Position numbers and translations under genes: made by a program. Below, piece by piece: positions 8,201 to 9,070 of a stretch of DNA of 64,000 bases. The stretch's first letter is position 1, and each line of letters begins with the position of its first letter. Under the pieces are notes generated by a model, which was given only the letters and a program-made list of their open reading frames with translations, was not told where the DNA came from and did not search any database. The stretch is from Agathobacter sp. (GTDB taxonomy: Bacteria > Bacillota > Clostridia > Lachnospirales > Lachnospiraceae), in the NCBI GenBank assembly GCA_022769125.1, contig JALEKN010000060.1, positions 1-64,000 on the forward strand, read 5' to 3'.

Positions 8201-9070
8201 TTAAAAGCTAGAAAATATAGATGTTTGAGAGGTAGGGACTCTAAACTTACAGAGAATGCGGTCCGGGCGCATACGGAGCGCTGTACGGATCAGGTCATGT
8301 ATGGTTATAGCCGCCACGCCCTCCGTATTGGAATTACGCGTCTCTAAGCGGACCAGATTATCCACGCCCTGAATCTGAAGTTCTGCAGAATCTTCAATTG
8401 TAATAATGCGTTCATCGGAGGGAATATACTGCGATAATGCATTTAGAAATGTTGTTTTGCCGGAGCCTGTGCCGCCGGAAATGATCATGCTGTAGCGGGC
8501 CTTTACAAGCGTCTGCAGTAAATCTGCTGCTTCCTCACAGATCGCCCCCATTGCGATCAGCTGCTGCATGGTAAGTGGATGCTCCGGGAACTTGCGGATG
8601 GTTAAGGCCGATCCATCAATCGATATCGGTGCAAGCACCATATTGACGCGTGAGCCATCTGCAAGACGCGAGTCCACGATCGGTGCGGACAGATTGATAA
8701 CACGATTATGTCTTGCAACAATCTGCTGTAGGATATCCACCAATCGTTCCTCAGAGGTAAACTGCCCATCCCAGCGGTAGATGCGCCCTTTCTTTTCATA
8801 AAAGATTTTCTTCGGCCCATTGACCATGATCTCGGAAACTTCCGGATCATCCACCAGCTCCTGTATGGCATCAAGCTTCCGAAGGGAATTAAACACCTGC
8901 TGTTCAAGCCTCACCCTATCCCGGATGGAAAACATTCCGTCCCGGGCAAAGGCCATACGCTCTTCTGTGATAATTGCTTCAAGCTCCTCATCACTGATTT
9001 CTCTTGACAGATCTAACCGTGCGAGAACCTTTTCCCGTATAAGAAGTACATTTTTCTCGAGTTCGTCCAC
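8201..9070 (-). pseudogene. cpaF: cpaF (Tad pilus ATPase), 3' half lost to the element
   Basis: CpaF/TadA is the cytoplasmic ATPase that powers Tad (type IVb) pilus assembly. The remaining 289 codons hold the N-terminal domain and the Walker A loop GGTGSGKTTFLNAL, followed by the Asp-box region ITIEDSAELQ. The frame is normal to RMRPDRI, just where Walker B would follow (usually [14 protein letters not shown]), then 20-odd foreign residues and a stop. Walker B, His box and the C-terminal domain, about 150 residues, are missing, so the product cannot be an active ATPase. GTG start, immediately after the stop of the CpaE-like gene upstream. Confidence 0.9.

Follow-up and report, generated by a model that had tools for sequence, protein, structure and literature searches.

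An element of GInt-like and Tn554-type character probably integrated in the Tad pilus ATPase gene cpaF of an Agathobacter genome, in a segment shared by several mobile elements

GInts (ginABCD) encode three tyrosine recombinases and a TnpC-like protein in one operon on a cargo island, and the available text of PMC5385486 reports that excision and integration require all four gin genes, that the cuts are staggered by ~6-7 nt, that circles form at low frequency, and that site specificity is high, with distant relatives using one insertion site. The operon delimits the 5' end of a GInt, the cargo runs from ginD to a short AT-rich 3' end, and imperfect direct repeats of 10-17 nt flank the island. 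In the Tn554 family (tnpA, tnpB, tnpC), two recombinases are combined with a DUF6262 protein, and the chromosomal target and orientation are fixed. The target of Tn554 is radC.

Disruption of filament genes by site-specific mobile elements is already known in principle, from competence genes and from serine recombinase targets. According to the available text of PMC4774983, elements that include prophages interrupt coding sequences for type IV filaments or DNA uptake (comYC, comK, comM) at an orthologous site across species, and in the accessible part of PMC10083194 distantly related large serine recombinases share one conserved gene, with competence genes enriched among the targets. The case described here differs from the former in that the machine hit is the Tad pilus, through two genes, and that tyrosine as well as serine recombinases are involved within ~75 bp of cpaF, and from the latter in that tyrosine trios occupy the same gene segment too. 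The main text of PMC10083194, as far as available, contains none of the words cpaF, T2SSE, VirB11, pili, pilus or secretion, and the available text of a paper on gut mobile elements (PMC6907783) mentions neither pilus nor cpaF; the CpaF gene appears in a table of Clostridium difficile genes in the accessible part of PMC5337907. In the open-licence literature, with subscription papers and supplements outside the scope, we found no cpaF or Tad integration site, no account of cpaF or the Flp pilin as a hotspot for integration, and none of a 28-codon stretch used by both tyrosine trios and serine recombinases.

The window, that is, the whole stretch of DNA analysed here, comprises 64,000 nucleotides of an Agathobacter sp. 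contig (C25 of genome G000). It starts at contig base 1, and the left end of the element lies outside it. With a probability of about 0.88, window positions 1-8251 are the right part of a GInt-like/Tn554-type element integrated in cpaF, and the interrupted segment is a shared landing zone. The features of the locus are the following.

1..240, plus strand: 3'-terminal part of a cargo ORF truncated where the contig begins (from sequence)
1355..2284, plus strand: fourth tyrosine recombinase-like gene, 309 aa (XerC model 7.5e-8, far under the equivalog cut-off)
2281..2571, minus strand: second DUF6262 protein, 96 aa, upstream of A (2.3e-8, above the cut-off)
2830..4029, plus strand: tyrosine recombinase A, TnpA/GinA position, 399 aa (Phage_integrase 8.3e-23)
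4022..5788, plus strand: tyrosine recombinase B, 588 aa (Phage_integrase 6e-26)
5805..7676, plus strand: tyrosine recombinase C, TnpB-like, 623 aa (Phage_integrase 1.5e-20)
7663..8076, plus strand: DUF6262-type (TnpC-like) protein D, 137 aa (DUF6262 E=1.9e-5, 25.2 bits)
8077..8251, no strand: AT-rich terminal stretch between gene D and cpaF (from sequence)
8250..8256, no strand: right junction of element and cpaF, point B, I-x-V-G codons (divergence from relatives' cpaF)
8252..9070, minus strand: 5' part of cpaF, Tad pilus motor ATPase, ending RMRPDRIL (T2SSE E=2.8e-37)
9071..10108, minus strand: gene upstream of cpaF in the CpaE/TadZ position (function from position; no Pfam match)
10130..10669, minus strand: prepilin peptidase (Peptidase_A24 2.6e-12)

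The minus-strand stretch 8246-9070 (275 aa) matches T2SSE; its match to the TadA-family ATPase model TIGR03819 stays below the cut-off because the protein is truncated. The original prediction held that cpaF is intact to RMRPDRI and then gives way to AT-rich element DNA, and both the point of divergence and the drop in G+C bear this out. The frame is unbroken as far as RMRPDRIL, with the break at window 8252-8254. The final host-like bases are 8252-8260 (sense CGCATTCTC), and from 8251 downward the window departs from the cpaF of intact relatives, which read on as (I/V/L)VGE(C/V)RG after the RMRPDRIL position. The G+C content is 31.4% in 1-8251 versus 46.4% in 8255-16000. Same-genus homologues of the 5' part are at most 73% identical. 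A search of G000 for a second close cpaF found none, the other ATPase matches being only 29-35% identical.

The 3' half, sought as a check on the prediction, is present in the same genome, though on another contig: C61 opens with it as a 116-aa frame without stops (C61:3-335), which begins at HDGSLSTGHANS, ~19 codons downstream of the break. It is followed by a TadB-position gene, a TadC-position gene and an intact 57-aa Flp-type pilin, names that derive from position and sequence. C61 is presumably located to the left of C25. The ~19 codons between the break and the C61 start were not found in G000 with a degenerate pattern that allowed one mismatch, nor was a second strong copy of the window 1-1300 DNA found in that genome. 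The G118 match at C44 was rejected, as it sits in an unrelated ORF.

The four-gene operon of three tyrosine recombinases and a small DUF6262-type, TnpC-like protein points into cpaF, with the stop of gene D ~175 bp from the junction, and this gene content supports the earlier description of a multi-recombinase, Tn554-type element. Recombinases A and C resemble the first and second recombinases, respectively, of a Peribacillus trio that we read as Tn554-type (about 30% identity over 92% and 28% over 95%); the third gene of that trio is DUF6262. Recombinases B and C are related to each other, with 20% identity. Window protein D lies below the 29-bit DUF6262 cut-off, whereas its homologues in genomes G118 and G774 lie above it (46.8 bits). 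At the position of window 2281..2571, and likewise oriented, these two genomes have a 144-aa DUF6262-type ORF (28.9 and 29.7 bits against the 29-bit cut-off). The 309-aa gene scores 19.4 bits with Phage_integrase, below the 27.1 cut-off, and resembles a 298-aa ORF of G774 (L149:1028-1924) in its N-terminus and in a 52-bp DNA match; the G774 ORF gave no Pfam match. DUF6262 genes occur at three places in this trio lineage (L127:5496-6233, L159 and window 2281-2571), namely beside A-C, upstream of A on the opposite strand, and near the far (left) end. Ahead of the 309-aa recombinase gene, the non-coding stretch 590-1354 has a better fold than 20 shuffled versions (z -3.5). Rfam gave no match at gathering for 1-11000, and 200-1400 gave two matches far below gathering.

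Like the GInts, the cpaF element combines three tyrosine recombinases with a TnpC-like protein in one operon on a cargo island, and its relatives use one site. It fails the GInt layout, however: the operon is terminal but reversed, with D beside the junction and the cargo before A, and the target is broken mid-gene. We therefore call it GInt-like rather than a GInt, a likeness in gene content and site use. Of the Tn554 traits, the fixed target and orientation are found, and A, C and D fit the layout of two recombinases plus DUF6262; the extra recombinase B departs from that layout, the target is cpaF instead of radC, and the orientation of the operon at the element end differs.

Searching with recombinase C yielded matches in three of 397 family genomes at E<=1e-60 (G000, G118, G312). 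A search of genome_contigs with a three-row alignment returned three loci, taken as G774, G118 and G312, and exact peptide patterns of recombinase C found no relatives in genome_contigs or viral_contigs. G118 and G774 share the gene order of the window, and their elements, in identical orientation, adjoin cpaF at RMRPTRII and RMRPDRII. In G256, 55 bp nearly matching the right end of G118 adjoin RMRPDRLIV; no G256 recombinase was found at E<=1e-60, and this genome is assigned by its end sequence only, G000, G118 and G774 being assigned by recombinases and junction. The G312 contig ends inside the element, with the right end out of view. All four visible right ends (G000, G118, G774, G256) thus lie at the same codons, 8250..8256 of the window, in the same orientation, as had been foreseen in the proposal of a fixed target within a conserved gene through which the element enters the cpaF of different hosts. 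The proposed placement of the target in the RMRPDR DNA itself stood as to a conserved cpaF target but not as to the exact site, the crossover lying 2-4 codons past RMRPDR. Homologous elements in unrelated targets, an outcome that would have told against the prediction, were looked for and none was seen; the homologues share the target.

Window proteins A-D are 48, 38, 38 and 33% identical to those of G118, and the terminal DNA of the window (8077..8251) is dissimilar to the G118/G774 end. Between G118 and G774, in turn, recombinases A-D are 97/94/98/99% identical and the CpaF halves 65%, which indicates horizontal transfer between hosts combined with a fixed site. The left junction is visible in G774 and G256; in both, a 242-245-aa DUF6262 gene adjoins it and no host codons are lost. 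Compared with the 10-17 nt repeats of GInts, the ends of the G256 and G774 elements bear short imperfect repeats, as judged by eye.

That C25 falsely joins cpaF and element DNA is highly improbable. The genome is a draft (68 contigs, 92.9% complete) and the contig starts inside the element, features that such an assembly error would fit, but the same junction and orientation recur in independent genomes, and the interrupted segment is seen, with both flanks on one contig, in the one-contig genome G293. A chance origin of the G000 junction is excluded because G118, G774 and G256 share junction and orientation. For the integrated element, the most likely course of events is that the four-gene operon integrates a circular island at the I-x-V-G codons after RMRPDR in a fixed orientation, by a chemistry presumably like that of GInts. 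Such an insertion splits the Walker B region and takes the Walker B/His-box half out of the reading frame; it would inactivate the sole close cpaF copy found in G000 and probably cut off the downstream tad genes from their promoter. Pilus function is probably lost in G000.

The cpaF gene was surveyed in 62 genus genomes (59 matched) and 397 family genomes (385 matched), which share G000 and G009 and amount to 457 distinct genomes. In 27 of the 457, cpaF is split, or a contig ends, within the 28-codon segment that runs from RMRP to NTGH. The counts are minimum values: a closer look was taken at 34 of the 397 family genomes, picked for low score, so that breaks near the gene ends would escape, and two genomes of the genus set, G037 (in-frame stop) and G018 (contig start), were left out of inspection. 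The 27 consist of 22 family genomes from the low-scoring pick together with G000, G013, G027, G059 and G055. Element DNA is visible in 22 of them, and G258, G437, G195, G321 and G055 show contig ends only. With G774 added there are 23 visible cases, at five adjacent crossover points. The occupants are tyrosine trios of two lineages and serine recombinase elements of three kinds: paired ones, single ones (among them one within a prophage), and a third type.

Point A, after RMRP(D/E): G059, G325, G373, G027, G222, G234, all carrying a match to the G059 serine integrase, as a gene or a fragment of one
Point B, I-x-V-G codons: G000, G118, G256, G774, first tyrosine-trio lineage (G256 by end sequence only)
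Point C, NTGH before D: G013, G065, G309, G346, paired serine recombinases
Point D, LQA before xNT: G293, G199, G216, G300, second tyrosine trio
Point E, after QAMN: G360, a 627-aa serine recombinase beside the 3' part

The insert in G059 is a ~40-kb prophage with terminase, portal, major head and tape measure genes. Point C is also used in G218, which has two split copies of cpaF and a serine recombinase fragment beside one 3' part. G345, G336 and G244 were placed at point D by matching terminal sequences. The DUF6262 partner of the second trio was confirmed in G293 and G199, and an exact peptide pattern of its recombinase C found no relatives in viral_contigs. An additional inner ~620-aa serine recombinase is present in G293, G216 and G300, and none was seen in G199. 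The trio is visible in four second-lineage elements, and in these three of them either enzyme may have carried out the integration.

The remainder of the 34 low scorers are accounted for as follows: five are near full length, G249 lacks the N-terminal part only, G253 and G266 have frameshifts only, G066, G261 and G327 (contig ends) are split or broken elsewhere, and in G115 cpaF is split ~18 codons downstream of the hot segment. The breaks elsewhere lie at codons ~209-232 in G066:C37:1301469-1308480, with 7 kb between the halves; at codon ~200, near Walker A, in G327:C52/C34, where contigs end; and at codons ~258 and ~314 in G261:C3 and G115:C38. The +1 frameshift in G253:C119 (L102), in a CCCC run at point A, is an excision scar or a sequencing error. 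G035 was dropped as a contig end at the NTGH point, its contig being intact through that point.

The G059-type serine integrase is apparently not exclusive to cpaF. A 98% identical copy in IMG/VR L162 (4581-5061) stands beside a non-cpaF ORF that by eye looks like a phage tape measure gene, which may point to one prophage nested in another, and no cpaF was seen in the fetched flanks in L163 and L164. T4SS ATPase genes were not seen as targets among the inserts encountered in this cpaF-centred survey.

The precision of insertion was assessed by a profile-scored split at 23 loci, for which RMRP served as the anchor of the 5' flank and the HDGS-type motif as that of the 3' flank. Apart from G118 and G000 there were 21 two-sided loci; G325 and G222 gave no result, and at the other 19 the joined 28 residues score 54.6-74.3, compared with 58.9-76.8 for 36 intact copies over the same segment. 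G199, G309 and G345 fall just under the intact range, and two of the 19 (G258, G437) are contig ends at which no element was seen. The rejoined flanks at these 19 of 21 loci have neither lost nor gained codons, and excision could therefore restore cpaF there. Walker A or a close variant is kept in all 29 5' parts (25 with the strict motif, four variants). Of 23 3' parts, 17 run 92-125 aa to a stop and three are open to the fetched edge; G222, G325 and G373, without the strict motif, were unscored.

G118 and G000 behave differently, with joined-segment scores of 6.5 and -7.8. In G118, cpaF breaks off at point B and resumes at point C, beside a pair of serine recombinases, and since these are two different points the gene most likely holds two elements. 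A comparable stack is found in viral contig L165 (IMGVR_UViG_2936224828_000007, ~2700-2860), in which one cpaF holds an element with a serine recombinase pair and, beyond a 27-residue cpaF stub, a phage-type serine recombinase. Because the start of C61 is only a few bases away from point C, the cpaF of G000 most likely is doubly interrupted as well, as judged from sequence; the second element would then sit at the NTGH point, between the window element and the 3' part. A deletion of the ~19 codons in G000 is possible. With the 3' part starting at a second site in both G000 and G118, a single excision would probably fail to restore cpaF in either.

These observations bear on the idea that the insertion acts as a reversible phase switch, comparable to active lysogeny, in which regulated precise excision turns Tad pili on in a fraction of the population. 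The codon-exact flanks at 19 of 21 loci (two of them contig ends), the halves that stay open where seen, the retained Walker A, and the low-frequency excision by which GInts can restore attB (PMC5385486, available text) all accord with it, as do the contig ends a few bases from the crossover in G258, G437, G055, G195 and G321, such as mixed populations might produce. The open frames, however, fit recent and reversible insertion alike, no regulation was seen, and G000 and G118 appear doubly interrupted. A regulated switch is possible at single insertions as far as their sequences go, but as a general account of these elements we think it unlikely.

As a control, the recombinase C profile was run on 392 order genomes (E<=1e-50, at most three candidates scored per genome). 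At this threshold, which admits trio lineages close to that of the window and gives no census of Tn554-type elements, six of the 392 genomes match, and the inserts lie in Tad genes in all six: G000 and G216 in cpaF, and G009, G258, G749 and G758 with a third trio lineage (recombinases of 370, 638-654 and 629 aa plus DUF6262). The end of the third-lineage element cuts a Flp-type pilin gene in all four genomes (L167-L170), behind the conserved Glu and hydrophobic run; an intact pilin of 55-59 aa is found at the corresponding place in G000, G045 and G027. A search at these loci revealed neither the distal end of this lineage nor the remaining 3' portion of the pilin gene. The junctions leave tadC whole and interrupt the pilin gene, so tadC was rejected as the target. 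All three trio lineages are distantly related to each other, and the serine recombinases are unrelated to them.

That several elements and a virus use the same cpaF stretch suggests that switching off the pilus may be useful to them. Elements and phages might gain by disarming the Tad pilus, either as a route of DNA uptake that cures them or as a receptor for competitors, and cpaF and the Flp pilin would be targeted convergently because this disarming pays. We regard such an intragenomic conflict as a serious contender, at somewhat less than even odds. Two Tad genes are struck, the pilin in four of four third-lineage genomes; both cpaF copies found in G218 are split; competence genes are established targets (available texts of PMC4774983 and PMC10083194); and, in the accessible part of PMC8513845, a Liberibacter cpaF mutant lacks twitching and takes up less DNA. 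On the other hand, DNA uptake or phage binding by Lachnospiraceae Tad pili is a supposition here, and G059 and G055 retain another, full-length cpaF.

Alternatively, cpaF and flp may be chosen for being conserved in DNA and dispensable in the gut, providing a wide host range at low cost with pilus loss as an incidental result, which we consider plausible though a little short of an even chance. The crossovers do lie in conserved motifs (the Walker B segment; the pilin signal/helix), and integrases reuse conserved genes, such as ssb in the case of GInts (PMC5385486, in the part available). Taken alone, however, this predicts neither two genes of one machine nor disruption mid-gene, and the GInt authors, in the same available text, think that the target is probably not fully inactivated by insertion. 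That two genes of one machine are hit somewhat favors a benefit from pilus loss over a cheap conserved target.

A bolder proposal, which we hold only tentatively and on balance doubt, is that the Tad pilus of Lachnospiraceae is a battleground in which at least six recombinase lineages of two mutually unrelated superfamilies (tyrosine and serine), travelling on islands and phages, have evolved attachment sites within two Tad genes, one in the Flp pilin and five next to each other in the Walker B segment of cpaF, since a disabled pilus would block DNA uptake or superinfection. If so, successive insertions in one gene should produce stacked arrays parted by short cpaF stubs. Whichever account of the target applies, integration in cpaF at a shared landing zone provides a clear, testable case of different mobile elements converging on one surface machine in a large gut family. 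Should pilus loss benefit the elements, the idea of competence genes as targets would extend to Tad pili and hint at their role. In Lachnospiraceae, the crossover sites also offer natural attB sequences to new integrases of the serine and tyrosine types.

The other trio lineages carry cargo of their own. The G199 cargo of the second lineage (L114:10336-13888) includes two C-5 cytosine DNA methylases, and that of the third lineage includes a 305-aa actin-like protein (ALP_N, Alp7A) and a 117-aa ORF.
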